DNA of 64,000 nucleotides from Kineosporia succinea (GTDB lineage Bacteria; Actinomycetota; Actinomycetes; Actinomycetales; Kineosporiaceae), in NCBI RefSeq assembly GCF_030811555.1, contig NZ_JAUSQZ010000001.1, forward strand, positions 7,065,241 to 7,129,240, given 5' to 3'. The notes beneath the pieces were generated by a model. It was not told the DNA's origin. It saw only the letters and a list, made by a program, of their open reading frames with translations, and made no database searches. Numbering within the stretch: the first letter of the stretch is position 1; each line of letters starts with the position of its first letter. The position numbers and the translations under genes are program-made. Of the stretch, positions 13,423 to 29,428 are shown in pieces.

Positions 13423-13456
13423 GGGCCGGCTCCTCCGGGGCTCTCTCCCCCGTAAC

Positions 13457-13545
13457 GGTCGCTCGGGCCGGTCGGTCGCTCGGGCCGGTCGGTCGCTCGG
13501 GCCGGTCGGTCGCTCGGGCCGGTCGCTCGGCCTGTCGCTCGGGCC
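13457..13545. repeat. 17-base tandem repeat
   Basis: Three perfect head-to-tail copies of GGTCGGTCGCTCGGGCC occupy 13470-13520. They are flanked by shortened copies at 13457-13469, 13521-13532 and 13533-13545. The array begins 35 bases after the transglycosylase-like stop and is not part of a recognisable gene. Confidence 0.85.
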
Positions 13546-13580
13546 GTTGCCGATGCGGCGCGACTCTCGTGACGAGATGC

Positions 13581-13669
13581 GGACCGGCCGATCGCGAGAC
13601 CAAGGCCCGATCCGATCGCGAGCCAGGCACGGTCCGACCGCGGGCCAGGCCCGATCCGACCGCAGGCCG
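13581..13669. repeat. 22-base degenerate tandem repeat
   Basis: Units of about 22 bases (GGCCCGATCCGATCGCGAGCCA type) lie at 13604-13625, 13626-13647 and 13648-13669, with a diverged unit at 13581-13603. Copies differ at a few positions, unlike the nearly perfect arrays on either side. Confidence 0.7.
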
Positions 13670-13785
13670 GCCTGTCCTCGTCGAAACCCGGCCCGGGCGC
13701 GGCGTGCCTGCCGGCCGAGGCGTCAGCGAGACCCCGGCTCGCACCGAACCGAGAGACCCGCGTCCTCCAGCCCCACCGCACTCCC

Positions 13786-13922
13786 GCTCAGCACTCCCGC
13801 CCAGCACCCCCGATCGGCACCCCCGATCGGCACCCCCGATCGGCACCCCCGATCGGCACCCCCACTCGGCACCCCCACTCGGCACCCCCACTCGGCACCC
13901 CCACTCGGCACCCCCACTCGGC
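13786..13922. repeat. 13-base tandem repeat
   Basis: Ten full copies and one partial copy of a 13-base unit follow each other: two diverged units at 13786-13811, four GATCGGCACCCCC units at 13812-13863, then ACTCGGCACCCCC units from 13864 to 13915 and a partial copy. The switch from GATC to ACTC halfway indicates stepwise expansion. Confidence 0.88.
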
Positions 13923-14037
13923 CCGGACGTGAGCCACCCGTCGAAGATCACCGGAATAGAACGACCGGGCCCCGAATTGGTCTCAACCTGTCAGCACGGC
14001 TCGTGACTGACGTGACGCAGCACACCACTGCGTACAG

Positions 14038-14082
14038 TTGAAGGTTCAATCATTCCGCCGAATGATTTACATGAATCTTCAA
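14038..14082. promoter_or_regulatory. Dyad operator before the riboflavin-type operon
   Basis: TTGAAGGTTCAA (14038-14049) is a palindrome with a GG centre. A second TTGAAG-A-TTCA site lies on the minus strand at 14072-14082. Between them TCATTC-CGCC-GAATGA (14050-14065) is another perfect inverted repeat. A TACAGT -10-like hexamer at 14033-14038 overlaps the left site. The stretch is much less GC-rich than its surroundings, as expected for a repressor operator; MarR-type proteins use such TTGAA half-sites. Confidence 0.6.
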
Positions 14083-14097
14083 GCACTTGGGGTCACG

Positions 14098-14754
14098 ATG
14101 ACGTTCACAACGAATGAGACGACCACTCCCGCGGCCGGGATCCGGACGCAGGTGACGGTCCCGCTGGCCTTCCCCGACGGCTACACGACCACGGCCGAGG
14201 TCTTCACCTTCACCGGGCTGACCGACGGGCGCGAGCACCTGGCCCTCGGCCTGGGCGACTGGCGGGCCCGGCTCGAGCACGGCCCGGCGCCGCTGGTGCG
14301 CCCGCACAGCGAGTGCCTGACCGGCGACGTGTTCGGCTCCCAGCGCTGCGACTGCGGTCCGCAGCTGCGCGAGGCGGCCGAGACCATCACCGAGGCCGGC
14401 GGTTTCCTGCTGTACCTGCGCCAGGAGGGGCGGGGCATCGGCCTGTACGCCAAGCTCGACGCCTACGCGCTGCAGGACCAGGGCCTGGACACCTACGAGG
14501 CCAACCTCGCCCTCGGGCGCGGTGAGGACGAGCGCGACTACACCGCCGCCGCGCAGATGCTGCTGGCGCTGGGCGCCGACCGGATCCGCCTGCTCAGCAA
14601 CAACCCGGACAAGGCACGGCAGCTGGAGTCCCGGGGGGTGCGGGTCACCGAGCACGTCCCCACCGGCGTGCACCTGTCGGAGGCGAACGAGCGCTACCTC
14701 CTGGCCAAGGTCACGCACACCCACCACACCATCGCTCTGCCGCTCGCCGGCTGA
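14098..14754 (+). CDS. ribA: GTP cyclohydrolase II
   Basis: 218 residues, a stand-alone RibA without the RibB domain. It opens the imidazole ring of GTP, releasing formate and pyrophosphate, as the first step of riboflavin synthesis. The zinc ligands are in HSECLTGD and QRCDCG; RQEGRGIGL, the Arg in DERDY and the Tyr in DAYALQDQG (equivalent to E. coli Tyr105) are all kept, so a canonical product is expected rather than the formylated variant seen in some actinobacterial paralogues. The ATG at 14098 is preferred; in-frame ATGs at 14062 and 14071 lie inside the operator. First gene of a four-gene operon. Confidence 0.92.
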   Translation: MTFTTNETTTPAAGIRTQVTVPLAFPDGYTTTAEVFTFTGLTDGREHLALGLGDWRARLEHGPAPLVRPHSECLTGDVFGSQRCDCGPQLREAAETITEAGGFLLYLRQEGRGIGLYAKLDAYALQDQGLDTYEANLALGRGEDERDYTAAAQMLLALGADRIRLLSNNPDKARQLESRGVRVTEHVPTGVHLSEANERYLLAKVTHTHHTIALPLAG

Positions 14755-14775
14755 ACCATCGCTGGGAGAACCACC

Positions 14776-15372
14776 ATGACGAGCACCACCCCGTCGTCCA
14801 CCGTCACCGAAAAGGCCGCCACCACGGCCGTTCCGCTGAACGACCTGCTGGCCCACCGCTGGAGCTCACGGGCCTTCGACCCGCAGCACGAGCTGAGCGA
14901 GCCGCAGGTCAGCGCGCTGCTCGAGGCCGCCCGCTGGGCGCCCAGCGCCTCCAACACCCAGCCCTGGCGGTTCGTCGTGGCCCGGCGCGGCACCGCCGAG
15001 TTCGACGCCGTGCTGGACACGCTCGCCGGAGGCAACCAGGTCTGGGCCCGGCACGCGTCCGCCCTGCTGGTCGTGGCCGCACAGGGCACCGACCGGCCGT
15101 GGGCGCTGTACGACACCGGCCAGTCCGTGGCACTGCTGTCCGTGCAGGCCGGGCACGAGGGCCTGGCCGCGCACCAGATGGGCGGTTTCGACCGCGAGCG
15201 CCTGCAGGCGGCACTGCCCGACGGCGTGACCCCGCTGGTGGTCGTCGCCCTGGTCCGGCGCAGCGAGCACACCCGGCTGCCCGAGCCGTTCGCGGGCCGG
15301 GAAACCGCCGGGCGCGAACGTCTTCCGCTGGAGCAACTGATGCTCTCGCTGCGCTTACCCACCGCGTCCTGA
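14776..15372 (+). CDS. Nitroreductase-family flavoprotein
   Basis: 198 residues. The FMN-binding RWSSRAFDP start, WAPSASNTQPWRF and the later AAHQMGGFD helix are those of the nitroreductase superfamily. Proteins of this fold use FMN to reduce nitro groups, quinones or other electron acceptors; BluB, which makes dimethylbenzimidazole from FMN, also belongs here, but I cannot assign that role from sequence alone. GGGAGAA stands 6 bases before the ATG. It lies 21 bases after ribA and 15 before the reductase gene, which ties it to flavin metabolism. Confidence 0.88.
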   Translation: MTSTTPSSTVTEKAATTAVPLNDLLAHRWSSRAFDPQHELSEPQVSALLEAARWAPSASNTQPWRFVVARRGTAEFDAVLDTLAGGNQVWARHASALLVVAAQGTDRPWALYDTGQSVALLSVQAGHEGLAAHQMGGFDRERLQAALPDGVTPLVVVALVRRSEHTRLPEPFAGRETAGRERLPLEQLMLSLRLPTAS

Positions 15373-15387
15373 GCGCCGGGGACCGCG

Positions 15388-16128
15388 ATGACTCGCATAC
15401 CCACCCAGACGCACGGTGAGGGACGCGCGTCGGCCCCACGGCGTCCGTTCGTGCTGCTCAGCTGTGCCGTCTCGATCGACGGTTACATCGACGACACCAC
15501 CCCGCAGCGCCTGCTGCTCTCGAACGACGCCGACTTCGAGCGGGTGGACGCCGAACGGGCCGCCTGCGACGCGATCCTGGTCGGGAGTTCGACGATCCGT
15601 CACGACAACCCCCGGCTCCAGGTGCGTTCGGAGGCGGCCCGCCGCGAACGTCAGGACCGCGGCCTGCCGCCCACCCCCCTGCGGGTGACGGTCACCGGCA
15701 GCGGCGATCTCGACGCCGGAGCACGCTTCTTCGATCCGGTGGACGGTGCGGGCCCGGTGGTCTACGCCTCCACCCCAGCACGTCACCGGGCCCAGGAACG
15801 GGTCGGGCACGTGGCCACCGTCGTCGACGCCGGTGACCCGCTCGACCTGCACCTGATGCTGGCCGACCTGACCGGGCGAGGGGTGCGCCGTCTGATGGTC
15901 GAGGGCGGCTCGGCCATGCACACCCAGTTCCTCGGGGCCGGGCTGGCCGACGAACTGCAGCTCGTGGTCGCGCCCGTCTTCGTCGGCGACTCCGGCGCAC
16001 CGCGTTTCGTGGGCGACGGCGAGTTCCCGTTCACCAGCGGCCATCGCGCCCAGCTGGCGGCGGCCACCCCCATCGGCGACGTGGTGCTGCTCCGATACAC
16101 CCTCAGCGACAGGACTTCTCCGGTATGA
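15388..16128 (+). CDS. RibD-type pyrimidine reductase
   Basis: 246 residues with the DHFR-like RibD C-terminal fold: VLLSCAVSIDGYIDD at the N-terminus, DAILVGSSTIRHDNPRLQVR, and the NADPH-binding MVEGGSAMHTQFL. In riboflavin synthesis this domain reduces the ribose of the deaminated pyrimidine to ribitol. Here it is a separate protein rather than the C-terminal half of RibD, and the deaminase follows with a 4-base ATGA overlap. It is cytoplasmic. Some proteins of this fold have other reductase roles, but the operon argues for a flavin-type substrate. Confidence 0.88.
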   Translation: MTRIPTQTHGEGRASAPRRPFVLLSCAVSIDGYIDDTTPQRLLLSNDADFERVDAERAACDAILVGSSTIRHDNPRLQVRSEAARRERQDRGLPPTPLRVTVTGSGDLDAGARFFDPVDGAGPVVYASTPARHRAQERVGHVATVVDAGDPLDLHLMLADLTGRGVRRLMVEGGSAMHTQFLGAGLADELQLVVAPVFVGDSGAPRFVGDGEFPFTSGHRAQLAAATPIGDVVLLRYTLSDRTSPV

Positions 16129-16625
16129 CCAGGATCGACGACACCGACCGGCGCCGGCTGACCCGGGCCGTCGAGCTGTCACGCCGCTCACCCCTGTCCC
16201 CGACCCACTACGCGGTCGGCGCCACGGTCTTCTCGGCCGAAGGCCAGCTTCTGGCCGGAGGTTTCACCGGCGAGACCGACCCGGCGTACCACGCCGAGGA
16301 GGCGGCGCTGGCCAAGCTGACCGGCACCGATCTGCGCGGCGCCACGATCTACACCTCGCTGGAGCCGTGCACCTTCCGCCGCTCGCGGCCGGTGCCGTGC
16401 ACGCAGCTGATCCTCGACGCCGGCCTCACACGCGTGGTGCTGGCCCTGCGCGAGCCGTCACTGTTCGCCGACTGTGTGGGGGTGCAGACGCTGGTGGACG
16501 CGGGGGTCGAGGTGCTCGAGATCGCGGATCTCGGGCCGGTGGTCCGGGAGATCAACGCACACCTGCTCCAGCACGGCGAAGAGGGCCGCCCCGGCGACCA
16601 GACGCCGGGACGACCCTCTTCGTAG
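16125..16625 (+). CDS. RibD-type pyrimidine deaminase
   Basis: 166 residues. It has the zinc-dependent cytidine deaminase fold with HAEE (His ligand and catalytic Glu) and PCTFRRSRPVPC (the two Cys ligands). SPLSPTHYAVGA is the substrate loop. It should deaminate the RibA product. The PC-x-x-R-x-x-x-x-PC spacing is close to that of RibD deaminases. It overlaps the reductase gene by 4 bases and is the last gene of the operon; the convergent deacetylase-like gene ends only 12 bases downstream. Confidence 0.88.
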   Translation: MTRIDDTDRRRLTRAVELSRRSPLSPTHYAVGATVFSAEGQLLAGGFTGETDPAYHAEEAALAKLTGTDLRGATIYTSLEPCTFRRSRPVPCTQLILDAGLTRVVLALREPSLFADCVGVQTLVDAGVEVLEIADLGPVVREINAHLLQHGEEGRPGDQTPGRPSS

Positions 16626-16637
16626 AACCGTTCGGGA

Positions 16638-19600
16638 CTACCGCACGGTCAGCGTGAACGACTGCAGTGCCGTCCCCGCGGTGCTCACCGCCGTGAGCGT
16701 CAGGCGGTAGGTGCCCCGGACCGTCGGCGTGCCCGACAGCGTCGCCGTCCCGTCGTTGTTGCTGACGAAACGCACTCCGCGCGGCAGGATCCCGAGCGCG
16801 TACAGCGTGGCGTCCGGGTAGCCGGCGGTGGTGACCGGGAAGGTGAACGCCGTGCCCGCCGTCGCCGTCGCGTTGTTCGCGCTGGTGAAGACCGGGCTCT
16901 GGCGCACCGCGACGGTCAGCGTCTGGGTGGCAGTGCCCGCACTGTTGGTCGCGGTCACCGTCACCGGGTAGCTGTCACCGCTGGTCGGCCGGCCGCTGAT
17001 CGTGCCGCCCCCCGTGGTGTTGGCCGTGAAGGTCAGGCCCGGGGGCAGGCCCTTCACGCTGACCACCGGGGTGGGCGAACCGGTGCTGGTGATCGCCTTG
17101 GAGAAGCTCAGCCCCACCGTCGCGGTCGCCGAGGCCGACGACGTGATCACCGGGGTCCTGACCACCGTCAGGGTGAACGCCTGGGTCACCGTGCCGGCGC
17201 TGTTCGTCGCCGTCAGCGTGAGCGGGAAAGTGCCGGTGGTGGAGGTCTTCCCGGCCAGGACGGCGGTGCCGCCGGTGCCGGGGGTGAAGGTCACGCCCGA
17301 GGGCAGGGTGCCCGTGCTGCGCAGCGTGGCCGCCGGGTAGCCGGACGTCCTGACCGCGAACGAGAACGCCGTGCCGGCGCTCGCCGCGGTGCCCGCCTCG
17401 CTGGTGAAGGCCGGGGGCCCGGCGACGGTCAGCGTGAACGCCTGGGTCGTCGTGCCCTGCGCGCCGACGGCGGTCAGGGTCAGCGGGTAGCTGCCCGCCG
17501 AGCCGGCCGCCGGGGTGCCGGCCAGGGTGGCGCTGCCGTTGCCGTTGTCGGTCAGGGTGACGCCGGCGGGCAGGTCACCGGTCGCGGTGATCGTGCGGGC
17601 CGCCGGGGCGGTGGTCACGGCGAAGGTGCCCGCGGTGCCGACGGTCAGGCCGGCGGTGGCGGCGCTGGTGAAGACCGGGCCGTTCGAGGGCAGCGTCAGC
17701 TGGGTGGAACCGCTGACCCAGCCGGACCATTCGCCGCCGTAGGAGGAACCGAACGCCGCGCCGTTGACCTTGGTGCCGGCGGGCACGGTGACCGGGGCGG
17801 CGGTCGAGCCGCTGCTGGTCACGGTGACCACACCGTCCTGCACGTAACCGGTGACCGAGGGGTTCGCGCCCATCCCGGCCCGGGCCCAGGCCTGCTGCTC
17901 CGACAGGACGGTGGAGGCCTCCTTCAGGGACAGGTTGACCAGCGGGGTGTCGGTGGTGAAGACGCTGCGGTACTGGCTGATGATGCTCGACATGAGCTGC
18001 AGGCCGAGGTAGTCCGGGCCGGTCAGGTTCGAGACGTGGGCGTAGAACGGCCGGGGGTCGTTCGAGAGGATGAAGCGCAGGTCGTTGGTCGTGTCGGTGG
18101 GCACGATGTACGACGCGAAACCGGTCTTCGGGTCCAGCGGGGCGGACAGGCAGGTGGCGGTGGCCGGGTTGTCCTCGCAGTAGCCGCTGCCGCCGTCGGC
18201 CCGGGACAGGTAGATCCAGTTGTACTCGTCGACCTGCTCCTCCTTGGTCGACACGTTGTAGTACACGGCGACCGGGTGACGGGGCACCGTGGTCGCGGCG
18301 CCGACGGGCCGGGCCCCGGTCTCGCGGGAGGCGTCCGCACCGGCGTACCGGATGCCGGTGGCGGTCAGGGCGGCGGCGAAGTTCGGGTTGTCGACCGGCT
18401 GCTCGGGCAGGCGGAACAGGCCCGAGTGCTCACCGGAGAGGTACTCGGTGGCGTCGAAGTCCAGGCCCAGCGCCTTGCCCCGGGCGATGTTGTCGCTGAT
18501 CTCGGAGCTGATCGCGGCCTGGCTGATCCACGAGATGTTGCTGCCGTCGGCCGCGACCGCCTTGCCGTCGGTGGTCTCGCACACCCACGGCACGACCGCC
18601 GTGTTCTGCTTACAGCCCTGGTAGATGTGCTGGTAGCCGTGGTTGAGCCAGCGGAACTGCGACTTGTTCGCGACCAGCGCCTTGGTCAGCTCGTCGGTGC
18701 CGTTCCAGGCGTTGCCGTCGCGGTCGTTCAGCGAGTAGTACCCGTTGAACGGCAGGGTGACGGTGTAGTCGTTGGCCTTCTGCCAGGCCACGACCTGGTT
18801 CACATCCGAGGCCGTCATGCGGATGTCGGGCGTGGTCACGGTGACCGACGCCGGGCAGTCCTCGGTCGGCGTGCAGTTGTTCGTGCTGTCCCAGCGCGCG
18901 TCGTAGCTGAACGCGTCGTCGTAGTGGAACGTGAAGTAGTTGCGGTTGATGCCGAAGTGGGTGCCCTTGGTGACCCAGCTGACGATGCCGTGGGCCAGCT
19001 GCCGGTACTGCGACAGGCTCGTGCTCATCGCGCCGGTGATCACCATCTTCTCGACGCCGCCGTTGGCGTAGACGCCGACGAGCGAGCCGGGGGCGCTCGA
19101 ACCGGGCACCGGCACGGTGACGAACGGGGTGAAGGTGCCGCCCGCGGGCATCACGTCGGCGCCCGCCGGGGTGGCGATGAACCCGTAGGTGCCGACGCCG
19201 ATCGTCAGGTTGCCGGACAGGTAGCCGAACCCGTCGGCCTTCGCGGCATCGGTCGCCGTGGCGGTCATCCCGGTCAGGTCACCGGCGAAACCGTTCGGGG
19301 CGGCCGCGTAGTTCAGGCCGACCGTGGGGTTCGCCCACTGGTAGCTGTCGACCTGGCGCACCCCGAACTGCGCCTCGTAGCTGGTGAGGGCGGCCAGTTC
19401 GGCGGCCGGCAGGCCCCCGCCGAGGTCGTCGGGCAGGACGACGGCGTTGAACTTGCCCTCGGTGCCGTCGGCCAGGTAGCCGGCGGTGATCGCGGGCCGG
19501 GAGGCGTCCGCGAGGTCGACCTCGGTGAACGGCACGCCCTCGGTGGTGAACTGGTCGGTGATGGCCTTGACCCACACGCTGCCGTCGTCGACCACCAGGG

Positions 19601-19760
19601 CGCGCAGGTTGATACGGGCACCGGCCGCGGAGGCGGGGCCGGCGGCGGTGACCGCGGCGGTGGCGGTCAGGCCGAGGGCCACCGCCACGCTGAGCAGCGC
19701 GGCGGCCGGGCGGCGGGTTCGGCGGCCCACCGGGCCGCGAGTGGGCAGGGACAATCGCAT
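16638..19760 (-). CDS. Secreted Agd3-like (CE18) polysaccharide deacetylase with Ig repeats
   Basis: 1040 residues. A signal peptide (about 18-46, ending ASAAG) is followed by an N-terminal alpha/beta domain and a deacetylase barrel. NYFTFHYDDAFSYD (Asp pair at 281-282) and WLNHGYQHIYQG (His374 and His378, HxxxH) match metal motifs 1 and 2 of the CE4/CE18 barrels. The overall layout resembles fungal Agd3, which deacetylates galactosaminogalactan. From about 665 there are four He_PIG-type Ig repeats of about 85-90 residues (GPVFTSA, GPPAFTSE, TPVITSS, SPVFTSA). GGTGGA before the ATG at 19760 supports the start. Likely an extracellular or wall-associated deacetylase of the neighbouring exopolysaccharide system. 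Confidence 0.8.
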   Translation of the reverse strand: MRLSLPTRGPVGRRTRRPAAALLSVAVALGLTATAAVTAAGPASAAGARINLRALVVDDGSVWVKAITDQFTTEGVPFTEVDLADASRPAITAGYLADGTEGKFNAVVLPDDLGGGLPAAELAALTSYEAQFGVRQVDSYQWANPTVGLNYAAAPNGFAGDLTGMTATATDAAKADGFGYLSGNLTIGVGTYGFIATPAGADVMPAGGTFTPFVTVPVPGSSAPGSLVGVYANGGVEKMVITGAMSTSLSQYRQLAHGIVSWVTKGTHFGINRNYFTFHYDDAFSYDARWDSTNNCTPTEDCPASVTVTTPDIRMTASDVNQVVAWQKANDYTVTLPFNGYYSLNDRDGNAWNGTDELTKALVANKSQFRWLNHGYQHIYQGCKQNTAVVPWVCETTDGKAVAADGSNISWISQAAISSEISDNIARGKALGLDFDATEYLSGEHSGLFRLPEQPVDNPNFAAALTATGIRYAGADASRETGARPVGAATTVPRHPVAVYYNVSTKEEQVDEYNWIYLSRADGGSGYCEDNPATATCLSAPLDPKTGFASYIVPTDTTNDLRFILSNDPRPFYAHVSNLTGPDYLGLQLMSSIISQYRSVFTTDTPLVNLSLKEASTVLSEQQAWARAGMGANPSVTGYVQDGVVTVTSSGSTAAPVTVPAGTKVNGAAFGSSYGGEWSGWVSGSTQLTLPSNGPVFTSAATAGLTVGTAGTFAVTTAPAARTITATGDLPAGVTLTDNGNGSATLAGTPAAGSAGSYPLTLTAVGAQGTTTQAFTLTVAGPPAFTSEAGTAASAGTAFSFAVRTSGYPAATLRSTGTLPSGVTFTPGTGGTAVLAGKTSTTGTFPLTLTATNSAGTVTQAFTLTVVRTPVITSSASATATVGLSFSKAITSTGSPTPVVSVKGLPPGLTFTANTTGGGTISGRPTSGDSYPVTVTATNSAGTATQTLTVAVRQSPVFTSANNATATAGTAFTFPVTTAGYPDATLYALGILPRGVRFVSNNDGTATLSGTPTVRGTYRLTLTAVSTAGTALQSFTLTVR

Positions 19761-19972
19761 CGGTCCACCAGACGGAGTCGGGTCAGGGCAGTGAGGTCCG
19801 ATGCTCAGTCGGCCACGGACAGTCACCGGTCCCCGAACCGTAGGACACCACTCCCACCCTCAGTGCCGGTCCGGAGCCGAAATCACCCGCCCGGCGTGGC
19901 ATTATGCACCGAAACCGGGCAGGCCCGGGTGACGCGTCGTGGCCCTCTACGACGATGGGGGACGCGCCGGGC

Positions 19973-20671
19973 TCAGTCGCCGATCAGGGTGGCCGCCGCC
20001 GAGGTGGCCGCCGAGCGGGCGAGCGCCGCGGTCGCGGCGGTCGCGCTGACCTGCACGAGGCGCTTGCGCACCACCGCGTTGACCTGGGCGGTCGTGACCG
20101 GCCCGGTGGTCACGACCGCTCCGGCCGACACCCGGCCCGTCTCCGGCGAGAACGACCGCGCCCCACTGCCGGCCGGGGGCAGCCCCTGCTCGACCAGGTC
20201 CTGGTCACCGGCGACGGCCACCTGCCAGACCAGGTAGCCCAGCCGCACTCCCCCGTCGGCCGAGTACGTGCAGCCGTCGAGCTGCCGCCGCCCGTCGGTG
20301 GCCGTGCGCGGATCCGGAACCCCCTCGCCGACGTCAGTTTTCAGCAGGCGGCCGACCTGGGCCGCGGTCAGGCCGGCACAGGTCGTGGCCGGTGCGCCGG
20401 TCCCGGTCCCGGTTCCGGTTCCGGCTCCGGGGCTGTCCGTGGTGGACGTGGTGGTCACGACCGGGCTCGCCGCACCGCTCGCGCCGGGCACCGCCGACGC
20501 ACCGGCTGCCGGTGACGGAGTGACGACCGCGCCGGCTTGCGCACCGGAGGACCCCGAGGAGCAGGCGGACATCAGTGCCGTCAATGCCGTCAATGCCACC
20601 GGGAGGGCCAGAACCGCCCACCGCCGGGACGATTCGGCACAACGGGACTCGGACCGGCGGGGCGCGGACAT
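19973..20671 (-). CDS. Lipoprotein of unknown function
   Basis: 232 residues. A hydrophobic signal ends in the lipobox LMSAC, followed by a Ser/Gly/Thr/Pro-rich linker with (GT) repeats to about residue 95. The C-terminal globular part contains two Cys (TTCAGLTAAQVG and DGCTYSADG), probably disulphide-bonded, like DUF3558-type lipoproteins of actinomycetes. AGGAG lies 8 bases before the chosen ATG. It is transcribed in the same direction as, and just upstream of, the Agd3-like gene, so it may act on the same surface polysaccharide; that is inference. Confidence 0.8.
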   Translation of the reverse strand: MSAPRRSESRCAESSRRWAVLALPVALTALTALMSACSSGSSGAQAGAVVTPSPAAGASAVPGASGAASPVVTTTSTTDSPGAGTGTGTGTGAPATTCAGLTAAQVGRLLKTDVGEGVPDPRTATDGRRQLDGCTYSADGGVRLGYLVWQVAVAGDQDLVEQGLPPAGSGARSFSPETGRVSAGAVVTTGPVTTAQVNAVVRKRLVQVSATAATAALARSAATSAAATLIGD

Positions 20672-21025
20672 GAGGGATGCTCCTGACCTGGATCGAGGCT
20701 GCTGCCGGCCCCGTGACGAGGCCGACATCAGATTGCCGCACGGTCACCGGAAAGCGGGGCGGACCGGTCGTGTGTCGCCGGTCCGCAACGATTCTCGTCC
20801 GGACGAACCGGGCATCCCGACCCGCCGGGCGCTTCGGGATGGGCGGATACGCGAACTCCGGACCGGAACGACCGTCACACCAGGTAGTCAGATCCTGCGT
20901 TCGGTGACTCCGTGCGTCAGCTGTGATGAAGCAACTCACTGGAGCATTGCCACCCTGCGCTGCCGTCACTCACTCTGAGTCGGCAGGCCGGAGAGCGGAC
21001 GAGGACGGACGAGGGGAGCCCACGG
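20672..21025. promoter_or_regulatory. Divergent promoter region of the exopolysaccharide locus
   Basis: About 350 bases between the lipoprotein (minus) and the PelF-like gene (plus). No gene is visible. It must carry promoters for both arms of the locus. The stretch around 20880-20985 is less GC-rich and is the likely control region, but I could not identify a clear -35/-10 pair. Confidence 0.4.
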
Positions 21026-22555
21026 GTGCGCATCGCACTGATCACCGAGGGCTCCTACCCGTTCTCGCACGGCGGCGTCAGCACCTGGTGCGACCAGCTG
21101 GTGCGCGGCCTGCCCGAACACGACTTCGAGGTGGTGGCCCTCACCGCGACGGGCACCGAGAAGCTCCAGTGGGACCTGCCCGGCAACGTCGGCGCCGTGC
21201 GGTCGCTGCCGATGTGGGGCGAGGCGCGCCGCACCGTGGGCCGGACCGGGTTCGCCCGCCGGTTCCGCCCGGGCCGGCGCCACGCCGTGCGCCCGCTGGT
21301 GCGGGGCGACCTCGACCCGGTGGCCCGCGCCGGGGCCCACGACCTCGTGCACGCCCTGATCGAGCCCGACCTGCAGCTGGCCGGGGACCGGTTCCGCTCG
21401 GCCCTGCGCACCTGGGCCCGGATCGCCCCCGACCACGACCTCGAGGGCGCCCTGCTCTCACCCGAGCTGATCAGCGTGCTCATGGACGCCTGGCCCGCCG
21501 AGGAACTGGCCGTCAACTGGGGCGGCTGCGAGCGCGGTGTGCCCACGGTGGCCGACGCGGTGACCGCGGCCCGCCTGCTGACCCACATGCTGCGTCCCCT
21601 GGAGCACCGCCCGCCGGTGGCCGACGTCGTGCACCTGGTCTCGAACGGCATCGCCGGCCTCGTCGGGCTGGCCGCGAAGTGGCGCCACGGCACACCTTTC
21701 GTGCTGTCCGAGCACGGCGTGTACCTGCGTGAGCGGTACCTGTCGTTCGGCCGCTCGACCTACGCGCGGCCGGTGAAGTGGCTGCTGCTGCGCTTCTACC
21801 GCCTGCTCTCCAGCGCGGTCTACGCGGAGGCGGCACTGGTCGCGCCGGGCAACGTGTACAACCAGCGGTGGGAGACGTGGGACGGCGTGCCCGACAACGT
21901 CATCCGCACCGTCTACAACGGCGTCGACCCGGCCGAGTTCACGCCGGCGGACACCGAGCCCGAGGTGCCGACCATCGCCTGGGTCGGGCGCATCGACCCG
22001 ATCAAGGACCTGGAGACGCTGGTGCGCGCGTTCGCGCTGGTGCGTCAGCGCTGCCCGCAGGCCCGCCTGCGGGTGTTCGGCGGCACGCCGGCCGGCAACG
22101 AGGACTACCGCAGCGCGCTCGAGCAGCTCGCGACCGACCTGGGCCTGGGTGACTCGGCCTGCTTCGAGGGCCGGGTCGAGTCGGTGCAGGACGCCTACGC
22201 CGCCGGTCACCTGGTCGCGCTCACGAGCATCTCCGAGGGATTCCCCTACACCGTGATCGAGGCGATGAGCTGCGGCCGGGCCACCGTGTCCACCGACGTC
22301 GGCGGCGTGGCCGAGGCCGTCGGGGACGCCGGCCTGGTCGTGCCGCCGCGCGACCCGGCGGCCTTCGCCGACGCCTGCGTGCAGCTGCTCACCGACGACG
22401 CCGAACGCCGCCGTCTGGCCGCGCGCGCCCGGGACCGGGTGATCGAGCTGTTCACGCTGGAGCAGTCCCTGACCGCGTTCCGCACCATCTACGCCGACGT
22501 CCGGAGCGGCGTCGACCGTGAGGGAGCCCTGGCCGGCCGGGAGGTGCTGGTGTGA
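21026..22555 (+). CDS. pelF: PelF-type GT4 glycosyltransferase
   Basis: 509 residues. The N-terminal DUF3492-type start (MRIALITEGSYPFSHGGVSTWCDQLVRGL) and the GT4 end are those of PelF, the cytoplasmic glycosyltransferase of Pel exopolysaccharide synthesis. IAWVGRIDPIKDLETLVRAF and EGFPYTVIEAMSCGRATVSTDVGG (E-x7-E) form the nucleotide-sugar site. In Pseudomonas Pel the donor is UDP-GalNAc or a related aminosugar; donor choice here is inferred. GAGGGGAG precedes the GTG start. It overlaps the membrane protein gene by 4 bases, as expected for a synthase complex. Confidence 0.9.
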   Translation: MRIALITEGSYPFSHGGVSTWCDQLVRGLPEHDFEVVALTATGTEKLQWDLPGNVGAVRSLPMWGEARRTVGRTGFARRFRPGRRHAVRPLVRGDLDPVARAGAHDLVHALIEPDLQLAGDRFRSALRTWARIAPDHDLEGALLSPELISVLMDAWPAEELAVNWGGCERGVPTVADAVTAARLLTHMLRPLEHRPPVADVVHLVSNGIAGLVGLAAKWRHGTPFVLSEHGVYLRERYLSFGRSTYARPVKWLLLRFYRLLSSAVYAEAALVAPGNVYNQRWETWDGVPDNVIRTVYNGVDPAEFTPADTEPEVPTIAWVGRIDPIKDLETLVRAFALVRQRCPQARLRVFGGTPAGNEDYRSALEQLATDLGLGDSACFEGRVESVQDAYAAGHLVALTSISEGFPYTVIEAMSCGRATVSTDVGGVAEAVGDAGLVVPPRDPAAFADACVQLLTDDAERRRLAARARDRVIELFTLEQSLTAFRTIYADVRSGVDREGALAGREVLV

Positions 22556-24054
22556 GCGCGCCCTCGATGATGGAGCCCACCGGCGCGGGCCCGGTCCGGA
22601 TCCCGCTGTCCGGCGCCCGCACCGTGCTGCCGGGCCTGCCCGGCTGGGCCGGCGCCCCGGCCACGGCCGTGCACCGCCGCTGGAACGGCCACGAGCGCCG
22701 CTCCCGGGAACGGCTGCGGCGCCTGAGCCGCGACTACGACGCGCTGTGCACCTCGGCGGTCGACGCCGCCGAGATCGCCGCCGGCCTGGAGGCCTCGGGC
22801 TTCACCGACGGCTCGGCCCGCGAGTACGGCTACCCGGGTGTCTTCGGCCTGGCCGAGGCCCTGTTCCGGCTCACGCCCCGTCTCGCCGACCGGCGCCCGG
22901 GCCGCCTCGCCAACCCGTGGGCCGAGCGTCCGCTGCGTCACCTGGCGCGGGGACTGACGTTCGCACTGCCGGGCCTGGTGCTGGTCGCCTGCCTGCCCGC
23001 CCTGAGCAGCGGCGCCGACCGGGTGACGCTCGTGCTGGCGATGCTGCTCGGGTGGCCGGCCAGCCAGGCCATGGCCTTCCTGGGGTACTCCCTGGAGGGC
23101 CGGCGCCACCCCCGCGCCGCGGCTGCCGTCCTGCTGCTCGGCCTGTGCGTGTCCGCGCTCGTCGCCGGGCTTCTCGCCCTCGCCGCCCACACCCTCGGCG
23201 CGTCCGCCCCGGTCGTCGCGATCGCGGCCGCCGAGATCGTCTACGTCACGTCCGCCGCGGTCGTGCTGGTGCTGGGCAACGAGCTGATCGTGCTCGGGGC
23301 CCTGGTGCCCGGGGTGGTCGCGGCGGCGTGCTCGCGGTGGGTGCCCGGTCTGCCCGACCCGGTGCTGGTCGCCGGGGCCGTCTCCAGCGTGGCCCTGGTG
23401 CTCGTCGCGGCGCTCGCCATCTGCGCCGGCGCGCGGATTCGCGACCTGCGCGGCGGTTTCCGGGTGCTGACCCGGCACGACCTGACCGAGGTGGTCTTCC
23501 ACCTGGGCTACGGTCTGGCCGGCGGCGTCCTGGTCACCCTGCCCGCCCTCGGCGGGTCGGCCACGGCCGCCGGCGGGCTGGCCCTGCTGCCGGTGATCTG
23601 GTCGATGGGCGGCGCCGAGTGGAGCGTCGTGTGGCTGCGCCGGCGCTCGTTCGACCTGCTCAACGAGACCATCTCGGTGCCCGGGTTCCAGCGTTCCGTG
23701 CGGCGTCTGGCCCTCACCGGCACGGTGCGGTACCTGCTCCAGCTCACCGTTCTCACCGGCCTGCTGGTGGCCGGGTTCCGCCTGACCGGCGGCGCGCTGC
23801 CCGACCGGCCGCTCACCGTCGCCCTGCTGGCCGGCTGGCTGCTCGGCGGTGGCCTCTACCTGGCCCTGACCCTCTCGTCGCTGTCGGGGGTACGCACCGT
23901 CGTGCCCTGCCTGCTGCTGGCGGTCGCGGTCGGCCTGGCCGCACACACCCTCCTGACCTCACCGTTCGCGATGCTCGCGGCCCCCGTGGCCCTGGTGATC
24001 GCTCTGGCCCCGGCGCTGCGTCGCACCGTGGCCGACCCGGTACGGCACATGTGA
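22552..24054 (+). CDS. Polytopic membrane protein paired with PelF
   Basis: 500 residues. After about 125 cytoplasmic residues there are some 10-12 hydrophobic segments (LTFALPGLVLVACLPAL onward to AMLAAPVALVIALAPAL). I do not find a definite family motif. Its 4-base overlap with the PelF-like gene and its size make it the likely functional counterpart of PelG, which with PelF forms the polymerising and export unit in the inner membrane. In the fungal enzyme Gt4c both parts are in one chain. A hairpin follows immediately after its stop. Confidence 0.78.
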   Translation: MSAPSMMEPTGAGPVRIPLSGARTVLPGLPGWAGAPATAVHRRWNGHERRSRERLRRLSRDYDALCTSAVDAAEIAAGLEASGFTDGSAREYGYPGVFGLAEALFRLTPRLADRRPGRLANPWAERPLRHLARGLTFALPGLVLVACLPALSSGADRVTLVLAMLLGWPASQAMAFLGYSLEGRRHPRAAAAVLLLGLCVSALVAGLLALAAHTLGASAPVVAIAAAEIVYVTSAAVVLVLGNELIVLGALVPGVVAAACSRWVPGLPDPVLVAGAVSSVALVLVAALAICAGARIRDLRGGFRVLTRHDLTEVVFHLGYGLAGGVLVTLPALGGSATAAGGLALLPVIWSMGGAEWSVVWLRRRSFDLLNETISVPGFQRSVRRLALTGTVRYLLQLTVLTGLLVAGFRLTGGALPDRPLTVALLAGWLLGGGLYLALTLSSLSGVRTVVPCLLLAVAVGLAAHTLLTSPFAMLAAPVALVIALAPALRRTVADPVRHM

Positions 24055-24073
24055 GAGGCGAGGCCCGCCTCTC
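24053..24073 (+). terminator. Hairpin splitting the exopolysaccharide operon
   Basis: GAGAGGCG (24053-24060) and CGCCTCTC (24066-24073) form a perfect 8-base stem with a 5-base loop, starting at the stop codon of the membrane protein. It is not followed by T residues. It may partly terminate transcription or protect the upstream mRNA, giving less of the downstream sugar enzymes. Confidence 0.5.
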
Positions 24074-24136
24074 CCGCCGTCCCCCGAAACCTCAGTCCGC
24101 GCGTCCCACATTTTCTGCCCCTGAAGGAGAATCAGC

Positions 24137-25141
24137 GTGAGCACCGAATCCACCCTGGTCGCTGTCACCGGAGCCGACGGCTTCATCGGGTCCCACCTGG
24201 TCGAGGCCCTCGTCGAGCGCGGCCACCGTGTGCGGGCGATGGGCCTGTACAACTCCTTCGGCAGCTACGGCTGGATGGACACCCTGCCGCAGGACGTCAT
24301 GGCCAACGTCGAGGTCGTGCTCGGTGACGTGCGCGACCCCGGCTGCGTCGAGCCGTTCCTGGCCGGCGTCGACACCGTCTACCACCTGGCCGCGCTGATC
24401 GCGATCCCGTACTCGTACACGGCGCCGCGCTCGTACGTCGAGACCAACGTGCTGGGCACCATGAACGTGCTGGACGCCGCCCGCCGTCACGGCACCGGCC
24501 GCGTCGTGCACACCTCGACCAGCGAGACCTACGGCACCGCCCGCACCGTCCCGATCAGCGAGGACCACCCGCTGCAGGCCCAGTCCCCCTACGCCGCCAG
24601 CAAACTCGCGGCCGACAAGCTGGCCGAGAGCTACCACCTGAGCTTCGAGACGCCCGTGGTGACGCTGCGCCCGTTCAACACCTACGGCCCCCGGCAGTCC
24701 AACCGGGCCGTGATCCCCACCGTCGTCGCGCAGCTCGCGGCCGGCAAGAAGGTCATCGACCTGGGCGCCGTCACCCCGACCCGCGACTTCCAGTTCGTCA
24801 AGGACACCGCCGCCGCGTTCGTCACCGTCGGCACCGCCGCCGCCGGGTCGGTGCTCGGCCAGGTCTTCAACGCCGGTACCGGCGGCGAGATCTCGGTCGG
24901 CGACCTGGTTCGCACCGTGGCCCGGATCATGGACGTGGACGCCGAGGTGCGCCTCGACCCGAACCGGATCCGCCCCGAGGGCTCGGAGGTGCAGCGCCTG
25001 GTCGCCGACCCCTCGCGCCTGACCGCCGCCACCGGCTGGTCGGCGCAGACCGACCTGGAGAAGGGCCTGGCCCAGACCATCGACTGGTTCCGCGACCCGG
25101 CCAACCTGGCCCGCTACCGCACCAGCGGCTACGTCATCTGA
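24137..25141 (+). CDS. NAD-dependent sugar dehydratase/epimerase, LegB-like
   Basis: 334 residues, extended SDR. TGADGFIGSHLVEAL binds NAD; STSETYG and YAASKLAAD contain the catalytic Thr/Ser, Tyr and Lys. AALIAIPYSYTAPRSYVETN and RPFNTYGPRQSNRAVIP are typical of the LegB group, UDP-aminosugar 4,6-dehydratases, rather than of GalE. It should form a 4-keto-6-deoxy (or 4-epimerised) nucleotide sugar. GAAGGAG precedes the GTG start. First of four tightly spaced genes that supply or modify the polymer. Confidence 0.88.
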   Translation: MSTESTLVAVTGADGFIGSHLVEALVERGHRVRAMGLYNSFGSYGWMDTLPQDVMANVEVVLGDVRDPGCVEPFLAGVDTVYHLAALIAIPYSYTAPRSYVETNVLGTMNVLDAARRHGTGRVVHTSTSETYGTARTVPISEDHPLQAQSPYAASKLAADKLAESYHLSFETPVVTLRPFNTYGPRQSNRAVIPTVVAQLAAGKKVIDLGAVTPTRDFQFVKDTAAAFVTVGTAAAGSVLGQVFNAGTGGEISVGDLVRTVARIMDVDAEVRLDPNRIRPEGSEVQRLVADPSRLTAATGWSAQTDLEKGLAQTIDWFRDPANLARYRTSGYVI

Positions 25142-25169
25142 GACCCCCCTCCTCGTAAAGGAACACGCC

Positions 25170-26033
25170 ATGCACGCAGTGATTCTCGCCGGGGGCCAGG
25201 GCGTCCGCCTGCGCCCGTACACCACCAGCCTGCCCAAGCCGCTGATGCCGATCGGCGACCGCTACTCGATCCTCGAGATCGTGCTGACCCAGCTCAGCGA
25301 CCAGGGTTTCACCGACGTGACCCTGGCCATCGGGCACCTCGGGCACCTGATCCGCTCGTTCATCGGCGACGGCTCGCGCTGGGGCCTGCGGGTGCGCTAC
25401 CTCGACGAGGACCGCCCGATGGGCACCATGGGCCCGGTCGTGCGGATGCTCGACGAGCTCCCGCAGGACGTCCTGGTGATGAACGGCGACATCCTCACCG
25501 ACATGAACTACGCCGAGCTCCTGCGCGGCCACCGGGCCGGCGGCCGCCCGCTGACGATCGCCACCTACCAGCGCTCGGTGAACATCGACTTCGGCGTGCT
25601 GGACATCGAGTCCGACCAGGTCGTGGCGTTCCGCGAGAAGCCGACCCACCACTACCGGGTCAGCATGGGCGTCTACGGCGTCTCGACCGCGGCCCTGCGC
25701 GGTTACGACGCGGGCCGGCACTTCGGTTTCGACGACCTCGTGCTCGACCTGCTCAGGGCCGAGACCCCGCCGTCCAGCTACGCGTTCGACGGGTTCTGGC
25801 TCGACATCGGGCGCCCCGACGACTACGACCGCGCCAACGAGGAGTTCGCCACGCTCGCGCCGGCCCTGCTGCCCGCGTCCGACCGGCACCGGGCCGGTGA
25901 GTGCCCGTCGGCGATTTCCACCACGGCGGTGTCCTTCACCCCGTCGGCCACCATCACCCTGCCGGACGCCGCCCCGATCAGCACCCCGATCGCCCCGTGG
26001 GACATCTCCCTGCCGGCGGCCGCCGCTTCATGA
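25170..26033 (+). CDS. Sugar-1-phosphate nucleotidyltransferase
   Basis: 287 residues. AVILAGGQGVRLRPYTTSLPKPLMPIGD is the nucleotidyltransferase signature (the core GG-x-G-x-R-L-x-P with PKP), and VMNGDILTDMNY holds the metal-binding Asp. It activates a sugar 1-phosphate with a nucleoside triphosphate; similarity to mannose-1-phosphate guanylyltransferases is general, so base and sugar are open. The fold ends near FATLAPALLP; the last ~40 residues are a Thr/Ala/Pro-rich tail reading into the next gene, which it overlaps by 4 bases. Confidence 0.9.
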   Translation: MHAVILAGGQGVRLRPYTTSLPKPLMPIGDRYSILEIVLTQLSDQGFTDVTLAIGHLGHLIRSFIGDGSRWGLRVRYLDEDRPMGTMGPVVRMLDELPQDVLVMNGDILTDMNYAELLRGHRAGGRPLTIATYQRSVNIDFGVLDIESDQVVAFREKPTHHYRVSMGVYGVSTAALRGYDAGRHFGFDDLVLDLLRAETPPSSYAFDGFWLDIGRPDDYDRANEEFATLAPALLPASDRHRAGECPSAISTTAVSFTPSATITLPDAAPISTPIAPWDISLPAAAAS

Positions 26034-26896
26034 CCAGCGTTCTCGTGCTGGGCGCCGGGGGCTTCCTCGGCGCCCACACCGTGCGGTCCCTGAAAGACGC
26101 CGGAGCCGACGTCATCCCGGGCCCCTCCCGCGCCCAGCTGGATCTGGCCGGTGACCCCGGAGCCGTGGAAGCCTTCTTCGGGCGGATCGAGCCGGACGCG
26201 GTGGTGAACGCCACCGGTCAGGTCGGCGGCTCTCCCGAGGAGCTGGAGCGCGGCAACGTCCTGGTGACGCGGCGCCTGCTGCGGGCCGTGGCCCCCGGCA
26301 CGCGTTTCGTGCAGCTGGGATCGCTGGCCGAGTACGGCGACCCGGCCACCGGACCCTGGTCGGAAGACACCGTGGCACAACCGGTCTCGGACTACGGGCG
26401 GGCCAAGCTGCGCGCGGGCACGCTCGTGCTCGAGTCGCCGCGGGTCGAGGGGGTCGTGCTGCGCGTGGCCAACCCGGTCGGTTCCGGGCAGCCCGCGGGC
26501 AGTCTCGTCGGCGCGGTGATCGGCCAGCTGCTCGCCCCCGGTCACGAGGTGCGGCTCGGGGCGCTGGACGCGCGCCGGGACATCGTGTCGGCGCGGGACG
26601 TCGGCCGGGCCGCCGCCGCGGCCGCGATGCTGCCGGACCCGCCGTCGCACCGGCTGATGAACGTCGGCACCGGGCGCTCGCACCCGCTGCGGGACGTGGT
26701 CGGCGCCGTTCTGCGGCAGGCCGGCGGTGACGTGACCCTGATCGAGGGCGTCCTGCCCGGATCAGCTCGCTCCGCAGCGGTTCTCGACGCGGTGCCCGAC
26801 GTCGGGCGGGCCGCGGCCGCGCTCGGCTGGGTGGCGCAGGACGACCTGGAGACGGCGGTCCGGGACGCACTGGACGGCGCCGGTCTGCTGCCGTGA
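26030..26896 (+). CDS. NAD(P)-dependent SDR sugar reductase/epimerase
   Basis: 288 residues. VLVLGAGGFLGAHTVRSL is the Rossmann glycine motif. LGSLAEYGDPATGPWSED carries the Ser and a Tyr, and SDYGRAKLRAG the catalytic YxxxK. It belongs to the same extended-SDR group as GDP/UDP-4-keto-sugar reductases and could act on the product of the upstream dehydratase. ATG at 26030 overlaps the previous stop by 4 bases. The next gene overlaps by 4 again, so all four proteins are probably made in similar amounts. Confidence 0.87.
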   Translation: MTSVLVLGAGGFLGAHTVRSLKDAGADVIPGPSRAQLDLAGDPGAVEAFFGRIEPDAVVNATGQVGGSPEELERGNVLVTRRLLRAVAPGTRFVQLGSLAEYGDPATGPWSEDTVAQPVSDYGRAKLRAGTLVLESPRVEGVVLRVANPVGSGQPAGSLVGAVIGQLLAPGHEVRLGALDARRDIVSARDVGRAAAAAAMLPDPPSHRLMNVGTGRSHPLRDVVGAVLRQAGGDVTLIEGVLPGSARSAAVLDAVPDVGRAAAALGWVAQDDLETAVRDALDGAGLLP

Positions 26897-27570
26897 TCGG
26901 GCCCTTCCGACGCCGGCCCCGGCCGCTGGGCCTGGCCGTTCCGCTCTACGTGCACCCGGTGCTGGCGCCGGAGGCCTGGCGGGCGCTGGGCGGTGCCGAC
27001 CTGGGCCGGGGTTTCGCCGTGGCGAACGTCGCCAGCGGCCCGGGCAGCGCACCCGACCCGGTCTACCAGGACGCCCTCGGTGCGCTCACGGCCGCCGGCA
27101 CTCCCCTGGCCGGGTACGTCGACTCGTCGTACGGGCAGCGCGCTCCCGAGCTGCTCGTGGCCGAACTCCGGCTGTGGAGAGAGCTTTACGGGATCACCGG
27201 CGTCTTCGTGGACCAGATCACCTCGCACCCGCGCGACGAGCGCGAGGCCCGCACGCTGATCGGGCGGCTGCGGGACGCGGGGGCGAGCCGGGTCGTCGTC
27301 AACGCCGGGGTCCCGGCTGCGGCGGTGTGGTGCGAAACGGCGGACGTGGTGGTCACGTTCGAGGGTCCGTGGGACCGGTACCGGGGTCACCACGAGAGCG
27401 GTGGCTCCCCCGGGCGACGGTGTCACCTCGTGCACAGCATCCCGGCCGACGTACCCACCACCGAGGTCGCGGCGCGGATCGCGGCGGCGGGTGCGGGGAT
27501 CGCCGGGGTCAGCCACGGTCTGATGCCCAACCCGTGGACCATCGAAGGTGGTACATCCTGGCCCCGGTGA
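26893..27570 (+). CDS. Spherulin-4 family protein (GH135/Sph3-like)
   Basis: 225 residues. AVPLYVHPVLAPEAW, ANVASGPGSAPDPVYQDAL, LAGYVDSSYGQRAPELL and LYGITGVFVDQI follow the TIM-barrel pattern of Spherulin-4 proteins. Fungal Sph3 of this family is a GH135 hydrolase needed for galactosaminogalactan synthesis. The usual strand-end Asp-Glu pair is Asp-Gln here (VDQ), so the proposed catalytic Glu is missing. No signal peptide or membrane segment is present, so the protein looks cytoplasmic unless exported otherwise. GTGA overlap with the previous gene. Last gene of the arm. Confidence 0.82.
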   Translation: MIGPFRRRPRPLGLAVPLYVHPVLAPEAWRALGGADLGRGFAVANVASGPGSAPDPVYQDALGALTAAGTPLAGYVDSSYGQRAPELLVAELRLWRELYGITGVFVDQITSHPRDEREARTLIGRLRDAGASRVVVNAGVPAAAVWCETADVVVTFEGPWDRYRGHHESGGSPGRRCHLVHSIPADVPTTEVAARIAAAGAGIAGVSHGLMPNPWTIEGGTSWPR

Positions 27571-28046: not shown

Positions 28047-28832
28047 GTGCGGCGGGACGACGACTTCGGGACCGCGCTGCGGACCCTGCGGCAGCGGCTC
28101 ACTCCAGGAGATGCCGGGGTGCCGGCGTCGTTACCCGCCGTGCGGCGCGTGCCCGGCCTGCGCCGCGACGAGCTCGCGGGCCTGGTGGGCGTGTCCGAGG
28201 AGCACGTCAAACGTCTGGAGCAGGGCCGGCGCCGTCCGTCCCCGGGGGTGGTCGACGCGCTGGCCCGGGCTCTGCGGCTGAGCTCTCCCGAGCACGCCCG
28301 GCTGCGCACGCTGGCCGGGTTCGCCACCTCCCCCGCACCCGGTGGCCTGGTACCGCGTGAGGTCACCGCCCCGGCCCGGCGGATGCTGAACCGGCTCACC
28401 GAGGTCGCGGTCTGCGTGTGCGACGCGACCTGGACGGTTCTCGACGCGAACGACCTGTGGCACACCGACGTCTGCACCGTGCCCGACGAACGCGGCCGCG
28501 CCCGCAACGTGGTCTGGCGGGCCTTCACCGAGGGCGGCCCCTCCCCGTTCCGGGCGCCCGAGCGGCTCGACGGTTTCCGCGCCACCGTCGTCACCGAGCT
28601 GCGCGAGGCCGCGCGCCGCTACCCGGCCGACGCCGAGCTGTCGTCGATGATCGCCGACCTGCGCACCCGCAGCCCCGAGTTCGTGGAGCTGTGGGACGCA
28701 CCTCCGGCCCAGAGCGGCCCGGCCGACCGTCTGCGGGTGCCGAGTCCGGTGCACGGCCACCTCGACCTGGACCTCGACGTGATGACGATCAACCCGGGCG
28801 ACCTGCGCGTCGTGGTCTACACGGCGGCGTAG
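28047..28832 (+). CDS. XRE/MmyB-like (MLTR) transcriptional regulator
   Basis: 261 residues. The N-terminal helix-turn-helix (VPGLRRDELAGLVGVSEEHVKRLEQGRRRPSPGVVDALARAL) is the RRE-x-x-A-x-A-G-V pattern of this family. The C-terminal part is the PAS-like MLTR ligand-binding domain that senses fatty acids or other lipids in known members (VCVCDATWTVLDANDLW, ELREAARRYPADAELSSMIADLRTRSPEFVELW). GTG at 28047 immediately follows the operator pair. MLTR proteins usually control an adjacent oxidoreductase gene; here the neighbour is the SnoaL-like gene. Confidence 0.9.
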   Translation: MRRDDDFGTALRTLRQRLTPGDAGVPASLPAVRRVPGLRRDELAGLVGVSEEHVKRLEQGRRRPSPGVVDALARALRLSSPEHARLRTLAGFATSPAPGGLVPREVTAPARRMLNRLTEVAVCVCDATWTVLDANDLWHTDVCTVPDERGRARNVVWRAFTEGGPSPFRAPERLDGFRATVVTELREAARRYPADAELSSMIADLRTRSPEFVELWDAPPAQSGPADRLRVPSPVHGHLDLDLDVMTINPGDLRVVVYTAA

Positions 28833-29428
28833 TCCCACTGCCCGAAGTCCGGGGCGTGGGCGGTGTCGAGGTCCACGGCCGCCCCGTCGAGCCTGCTCTC
28901 CACCTCGACCTGCCGCAGCTGGGCCCGGTCGTCCCACCGGCCCCGCGACCAGGCCCGGGTCTGCCAGCCGTAGGTGATCAGCTGCTGGTCGAAGAGATGC
29001 GTGATGGTCGTGATGCCGCCGTAGACGCCGGTTCTCGCCAGACCCAGCACCTGGGCGACGCCCTGCGCATATCCGGCGATCGTGTCCAGCTGAGCGGGGC
29101 GGGGATCGAAGTCGACGGCGAAGTAGATCGGCGCGGCGGCCGGCCCTCCGCAGGCCGCCAGTCTTTCGGCGGCCCGGGTGGCGTGCTCGGCGCCCTTCGC
29201 CCGGCCGCCGCTCAGGTCGTGCTTCCAGTCGCCGTAGGCCTGCCAGACGCAGACGACGTCGAGGCCGGCTGCCCGTAGCTGCCCGGCCTCACTGCGGGTC
29301 AGGGCCTTGCCGCTGCCCTCCGGGGCGAGATAGCGCACGACGAAGGAGTACCCGGCCCGCCGGACGGCCTGCGGCGACGGGCGGTCGAACGAGTAGTCGA
29401 TTCCCTGCTTCATCGTCACAGCCGTCAT
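28817..29428 (-). CDS. DUF1906 glycoside-hydrolase-like protein
   Basis: 203 residues. KQGIDYSFDRPSPQAVRRAGYSFVVRYLAPEG begins the TIM-barrel of DUF1906, the Rv2525c-like group related to GH25. IYFAVDFDPRPAQLDTIAGY holds the conserved Asp pair, followed by YGGITTITHLF and WQTRAWS. In Mycobacterium the relative is linked to the cell envelope, but no activity is firmly established. No signal peptide is visible with this start; the alternative ATG is at 29413. Its 3' end overlaps the convergent MLTR gene by 16 bases. Confidence 0.85.
   Translation of the reverse strand: MTAVTMKQGIDYSFDRPSPQAVRRAGYSFVVRYLAPEGSGKALTRSEAGQLRAAGLDVVCVWQAYGDWKHDLSGGRAKGAEHATRAAERLAACGGPAAAPIYFAVDFDPRPAQLDTIAGYAQGVAQVLGLARTGVYGGITTITHLFDQQLITYGWQTRAWSRGRWDDRAQLRQVEVESRLDGAAVDLDTAHAPDFGQWDYAAV

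Follow-up and report, generated by a model that had tools for sequence, protein, structure and literature searches.

What does an actinomycete make with a PelF-type glycosyltransferase, a secreted deacetylase and a set of sugar-nucleotide enzymes encoded side by side? The question is raised by a locus of eight genes (16638-27570) in a 64,000-nucleotide stretch, referred to below as the window, of the Kineosporia succinea genome (8.07 Mb, single contig). The original prediction, whose description of the locus and its gene content we confirm, had the locus making and deacetylating an amino-sugar polymer like fungal galactosaminogalactan (GAG) or bacterial Pel, and our sequence comparisons support that reading. 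The locus is a real, conserved exopolysaccharide operon of a known kind. Judging by sequence and structural models, we give a probability of roughly 0.6 to its being an Agd3/PelF (GAG/Pel-like) operon for a synthase-dependent exopolysaccharide, in a variant equipped with a sugar-nucleotide cassette of its own.

The core of the operon is linked far beyond this genome. Across 296 genomes of the class, Spherulin-4 was found in 23, Agd3 in at least 17 and PelF-type DUF3492 in 33, and all three occurred together in 16. Among the 22 Agd3 matches listed, PelF lay within 15 kb of 20 and Spherulin-4 also of 20 (random placement would give 0.24 and 0.21), and 19 had both, bearing out the predicted linkage of CE18, PelF and Spherulin-4. 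The exceptions were an Agd3 gene on its own (G243:C6), a locus without Spherulin-4 (G173) and, on a contig of 5 kb, one lacking PelF (G009). Per genome we scored at most three Agd3 candidates, seven dehydratase matches (E 1e-80 or better) and eight nucleotidyltransferase matches (E 1e-60 or better), and the counts are lower bounds. Among named genomes, 532 stretches encode relatives; the best 80 were used, so this sample leans to close relatives. They come from Streptomyces, Kitasatospora, Streptacidiphilus, Actinomadura, Acrocarpospora, Kutzneria, Lentzea, Goodfellowiella, Planosporangium, Kineosporia and environmental bins. A locus was counted as usable (66 of 80, 14 being set aside) if 7.5 kb was available on both sides of Agd3 or if PelF, exporter and Spherulin-4 had already been seen, a rule that favours presence; the score thresholds for presence were our own. 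PelF, exporter and Spherulin-4 accompanied Agd3 in 62 of the 66, PelF and exporter without Spherulin-4 in 2, and Agd3 stood alone in 2. A GH114 gene was linked in 44 of the 66 (35 + 7 + 2).

The deacetylase gene (16638..19760, minus strand; start codon set by comparison with the Kineosporia babensis gene) encodes an Agd3-like (CE18) protein of 1040 residues with a Sec-type signal, a CBM87-like domain, a deacetylase barrel and a C-terminal beta domain, followed by four immunoglobulin-like (He_PIG) stretches. A fold search recovered the Agd3 fold with all three of its domains, CBM87, deacetylase barrel and beta domain, placing the protein within CE18 as predicted; the calls of PelF and Spherulin-4 likewise agree with profile and sequence matches. 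Three of the CE18 motifs (CM1-CM4 as defined in PMC7229062; statements on cited papers refer throughout to the portions of their text examined here) could be assigned by pattern and order rather than by residue alignment to Agd3: CM1 DD (D271 D272), CM2 HxxxH (H364, H368) and the CM4 His (H565; numbering from 19730). All five residues are invariant in alignments of 14 and 30 rows. Invariant arginines (R469, R474, R484) also occur in the region where the CM3 arginine, R613 of Agd3, would be expected. At the curated Pfam cut-offs the protein was missed (CBM87_Agd3 14.1 bits, cut-off 27.6; Agd3_CE unlisted), which we read as limited sensitivity of the models, since profile and fold results place it in CE18; 10 of 14 homologues matched Agd3_CE at E 0.1 or better. 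A direct PDB sequence search matched the C-terminal immunoglobulin-like part only, and profile and fold searches were needed. The predicted CE18 activity is a metal-dependent de-N-acetylation of an N-acetylgalactosamine (GalNAc) polymer. The closest named match, among the best 80 of the 532 relatives, is that of K. babensis (79% identity in the best segment). The He_PIG stretches (16638-17700, minus strand) are confined to the window among 14 homologues, one of which has fibronectin-type repeats instead, and locus L121 carries two deacetylase genes in tandem with further Agd3-like stretches between them (10001-16817).

On the plus strand, six genes run in the order PelF, polytopic protein, LegB-like dehydratase, nucleotidyltransferase, a second short-chain dehydrogenase/reductase (SDR) and Spherulin-4, with 4-base overlaps between PelF and the polytopic gene, between nucleotidyltransferase and SDR, and between SDR and Spherulin-4. 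The PelF-type GT4 synthase (21026..22555, 509 residues) scores 174.9 bits against NF038011 (cut-off 100) and 169.1 bits against DUF3492 (cut-off 23.3). E404 and E412, which we take to be the E-x7-E motif, are invariant in all 95 aligned rows. The polytopic exporter (22552..24054) gave no convincing Pfam family, alone or with 13 homologues; fold matching places it in the MATE/Wzx/MurJ fold (MOP superfamily), with a predicted soluble helical part at the N-terminus (approximately residues 47-107). For exporter and deacetylase alike, a family missing from the lists of fold matches is not thereby excluded. PelG (PF16933) matched none of 14 homologues of the polytopic protein and was unmatched in 6 of 7 genomes, K. 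succinea included; the seventh (G057) had one match below cut-off elsewhere, and a Thermotoga control was positive. The PelD_GGDEF search gave no match in the genomes tested, yet none in any control either.

The last gene of the run (26893..27570) encodes a Spherulin-4 protein of 225 residues with no signal peptide seen, placed in GH135 by sequence (PF12138 79.1 bits, cut-off 30.2; Sph3, 5c5g, E 0.0012). Its family had been predicted correctly; its proposed role as a counterpart of fungal Sph3 need not hold, because it shows no signal peptide and lacks the equivalent of Glu-167. The Sph3 catalytic residues were taken from a review giving Asp-166, adopted here, where PMC12054363 prints Asp196/Glu222. 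In the window protein the equivalents of Asp-166 and Glu-222 are kept and that of Glu-167 is Gln, leaving two of three acidic residues. The same holds for all 66 Spherulin-4 sequences from loci with the cassette (Gln or Arg at Glu-167), and in sequences from core-only loci, which lack it, the Glu-167 position is never Glu (0/17), one having Asp for Glu-222. This comparison left out L083, and its 18 rows from the 296-genome search are those passing its cut.

In the 62 named loci plus the window, the reading frame of Spherulin-4 relative to the upstream gene is identical in 62 of 63, and ATG or GTG falls exactly at the 4-base overlap in 58 (ATGA 18, GTGA 40), from where the protein enters the first strand of its domain within a few residues. 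By a crude signal test on these 63 genes, export as for fungal Sph3 was not found: some upstream ATG or GTG start passed in 11, where the hydrophobic stretch was, by eye, the domain's own first strand in 10 and an inner stretch in L107. When the start nearest the overlap was chosen, 59 of 63 overlapped (partly by construction) and one was signal-like. A looser test allowing distant starts passed 44/46 GH114 proteins (43 with lipobox), 75/81 Agd3, 1/73 PelF, 0/58 dehydratases and again 11/63 Spherulin-4. This suggests that the GH135-like protein works inside the cell, and its lack of a signal peptide looks new against the published text examined. It might then be a non-catalytic or transferase-like partner of PelF and not a hydrolase, as the replaced Glu-167 equivalent in all 66 cassette-locus sequences and the missing signal would allow; in two loci that have the SDR without the rest of the cassette (L101, L102), the Glu-222 equivalent is lost too. 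We regard this as doubtful, given that the Asp/Glu pair kept in the same 66 sequences matches the pair that serves as nucleophile and as acid/base in this fold (PMC12054363), and it would in any case be compatible with an Agd3/PelF operon carrying its own cassette.

The cassette is what sets the variant apart. Its three genes were all present in 55 of the 66 loci and all absent in 11, and both operon types occur in single genomes (G057, G143, G182). The putative NAD-dependent 4,6-dehydratase (24137..25141) scores 454.2 bits against the LegB model TIGR04180 (cut-off 475), against 165 for dTDP-glucose dehydratase, and 20 of 20 homologues match TIGR04180 at E 1e-30 or better. Its T-S-E and YxxxK motifs are kept in 58 of 58 sequences; we assume for these, and for the dehydratase acid, the meaning they have in SDRs generally. 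Putative substrates are GDP- or UDP-N-acetylglucosamine (GlcNAc), and Campylobacter LegB dehydrates GDP-GlcNAc (PMC7439481). The closest model for the GMPP/RmlA-like sugar-1-phosphate nucleotidyltransferase (25170..26033) is mannose-1-phosphate guanylyltransferase, far under its cut-off (120 bits vs 440). The SDR (26030..26896) is without the dehydratase acid and closest to GalE (matched by 19/22) and RmlD profiles, and would therefore be an epimerase or a 4-keto reductase. In L083/L107 nucleotidyltransferase and SDR are fused into one protein; this 2.2-Mb environmental bin holds a complete locus with a deacetylase 52-60% identical and a GH114 gene on either side. Since no glycosyltransferase other than PelF was found in the operon, on the simplest reading PelF would use the cassette product, a 6-deoxy-N-acetylhexosamine (6-deoxy-HexNAc).

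From these families a pathway can be proposed, in which we infer every substrate, the order of events, the identity of the sugar, and the parts given to SDR, exporter and Spherulin-4. The nucleotidyltransferase would activate a hexosamine-1-phosphate, possibly with GTP, and the dehydratase would convert the product to a nucleoside diphosphate (NDP)-4-keto-6-deoxy-HexNAc, which the SDR would reduce or epimerise to NDP-6-deoxy-HexNAc. PelF would polymerise this in the cytosol, alone or with GalNAc, and the MOP-fold protein would carry the chain across the membrane. Outside, the secreted CE18 enzyme would take off N-acetyl groups, leaving a cationic adhesive polymer. Spherulin-4 would act inside the cell, where it would probably trim chains at PelF or release them, and in many relatives the linked GH114 lipoprotein may trim them outside. 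The families and folds, the gene coupling, the linkage, the signal sequences and the motifs behind this scheme come from sequence or models.

Several observations weigh against it. The 11 loci without cassette show that the core is independent of it. The dehydratase falls 21 bits short of the LegB cut-off, and sequence does not settle which substrate it takes; the closeness of GalE profiles means that the SDR may be an epimerase. An SDR without the other two cassette genes adjoins PelF and Spherulin-4 in L101 and L102, and L099 has nucleotidyltransferase and SDR without a LegB-type gene. No GH114 gene is linked in the window, the genome's two copies lying elsewhere. On a quickly built PelF tree of 95 rows, which carries warnings of long branches, cassette (67) against core-only rows (15) needs two changes; when each label is set against every remaining row, the cassette label takes 8 (24.4 on average after shuffling) and the core-only label 4 (14.1). 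The tree leaves out L083 (a duplicate of L107), loci lacking PelF and PelF fragments shorter than 430 residues. Cassette and core-only rows differ at 11 PelF positions; since nearly all core-only rows belong to a single clade, we draw no claim of specificity from these.

Some of these points would suit a plain GAG/Pel-like locus, in which PelF polymerises UDP-GalNAc with or without galactose, the cassette, its SDR acting as an epimerase of the GalE type, provides an ordinary precursor, and the polymer is not chemically new. Besides the GalE profiles and the core-only loci, it can draw on the UDP-glucose 4-epimerase of the Neurospora GAG cluster (PMC11356417) and on GH114, a galactosaminidase family, being linked to cassette loci too (35/55). 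We think it unlikely, as an epimerase alone would suffice for UDP-GalNAc, in whose supply a nucleotidyltransferase and a 4,6-dehydratase with intact T-S-E in 58/58 sequences have no obvious place; moreover, cassette state tracks PelF type.

It is less probable still that the dehydratase cassette is merely housed in the operon and serves another glycan, such as a nonulosonic acid, a wall polymer or a secondary metabolite. NeuB does occur elsewhere in 6 of 7 genomes tested, but G203 (95% complete) has the cassette and no NeuB match, leaving NeuB unsupported as the dehydratase's partner. Dehydratase orthologues at 67% identity or more occur in at least 13 of the 296 genomes and, among the matches listed, all 13 lie within 4 kb of PelF; the next matches listed reach 58% or lower and are located elsewhere. 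In all 55 cassette loci the dehydratase shares the locus with PelF and Spherulin-4. Nucleotidyltransferase orthologues at 60% or more occur in at least 15 genomes, 13 in these same clusters and one each in G095, within another PelF cluster, and in G196, the latter with no PelF match in the DUF3492 search. That the genes are chance neighbours without a functional unit is refuted by linkage (20 of 22 observed, about 0.2 expected), by gene order conserved in several genera and by the 4-base overlaps, and we found nothing in its favour.

Related clusters of other composition were also seen. L099, in G095, combines Agd3, PelF and exporter with the nucleotidyltransferase, an SDR, a UDP-glucose-dehydrogenase-type gene and a divergent SDR/dehydratase, possibly a uronic-acid variant. 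L101 and L102 consist of a divergent PelF, SDR and Spherulin-4 without Agd3, followed in L102, the one of the two on which Pfam was run, by a ThiF/rhodanese protein; L098 has a weak SDR match. In the window, a small lipoprotein (19973..20671, minus strand, lipobox LMSAC) lies between deacetylase and PelF. It had no Pfam match and, among loci numbered L083 and above, a counterpart only in the K. babensis locus (52% identity), so that its part in the exopolysaccharide system is uncertain. Genes beside the locus (9549-16625) encode a BTAD-type regulator, GTP cyclohydrolase II and nitroreductase-like, RibD_C and cytidine-deaminase-like proteins, resembling a set as for a riboflavin/pteridine-type secondary metabolite. 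An Rv2525c-like glycoside-hydrolase-like protein is encoded shortly downstream (28817-29419, minus strand).

Compared with known systems, the operon is partly familiar. Bamford et al. 2020 (PMC7229062) reported Agd3 homologues in 45 bacterial species, in operons that also encode a cytoplasmic glycosyltransferase and a multi-spanning membrane protein, frequently GH114 and, in some Actinobacteria, Spherulin-4, and already discussed a bacterial origin of the fungal cluster. The linkage of CE18, PelF and Spherulin-4 was thus known, and the idea of a bacterial counterpart stands without being new. Unlike our locus, the text of that paper on bacterial operons mentions no dehydratase-nucleotidyltransferase-SDR cassette, no signal-less Spherulin-4 and no MOP fold; its Fig. 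8c and supplements, which may draw cassette genes, lie outside this comparison. The rest of the literature searched did not describe the cassette either, and the variant looks new against the published text examined. The fungal GAG cluster (uge3, gtb3, sph3, ega3, agd3) shares the synthase (Gtb3 being the published name in A. fumigatus, where Gt4c had been given), the CE18 deacetylase, GH135, an epimerase/SDR and, in many relatives, GH114. Its five named genes include no 4,6-dehydratase or nucleotidyltransferase, and fungal Sph3 is described as membrane-bound and as probably cutting the polymer outside, where it emerges from the synthase (PMC12054363). The Gram-positive pelDEADAFG operon (PMC7112168) likewise has a PelF synthase, a membrane exporter and a deacetylase; here, by contrast, no PelG match exceeded the cut-off in seven genomes, the deacetylase is of CE18, and the GH135 and GH114 proteins are separate genes. 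Because the examined literature lists this dedicated, optional cassette with neither the GAG nor the Pel genes, the product probably differs in its chemistry: the locus is GAG/Pel-like as predicted, and naming its polymer GAG itself goes beyond the sequence evidence. As for the cassette itself, known legionaminic acid cassettes pair LegB with a nucleotidyltransferase, and here too the two are neighbours. Unlike those pathways, no aminotransferase or NeuB was among the operon genes scanned, and the dehydratase sits inside a PelF operon.

In Aspergillus and Pseudomonas, cationic amino-sugar polymers control how cells adhere and form biofilms, and Streptomyces hyphal pellet formation and adhesion matter in fermentation. 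We found no assignment of a polymer to the bacterial CE18 operons in the literature examined. Our analysis separates two types of these operons, and the cassette of one predicts a distinct sugar. Somewhat short of even odds, we tentatively propose that PelF receives an NDP- (perhaps GDP-) activated 6-deoxy-N-acetylhexosamine and that many actinomycetes may thus make a cationic polymer of 6-deoxyhexosamine that is deacetylated by CE18 and has so far gone undescribed, its chain acted on by a GH135-like protein in the cytosol; some may in addition produce a separate, plain GAG/Pel-type polymer through a second operon of the core-only type.

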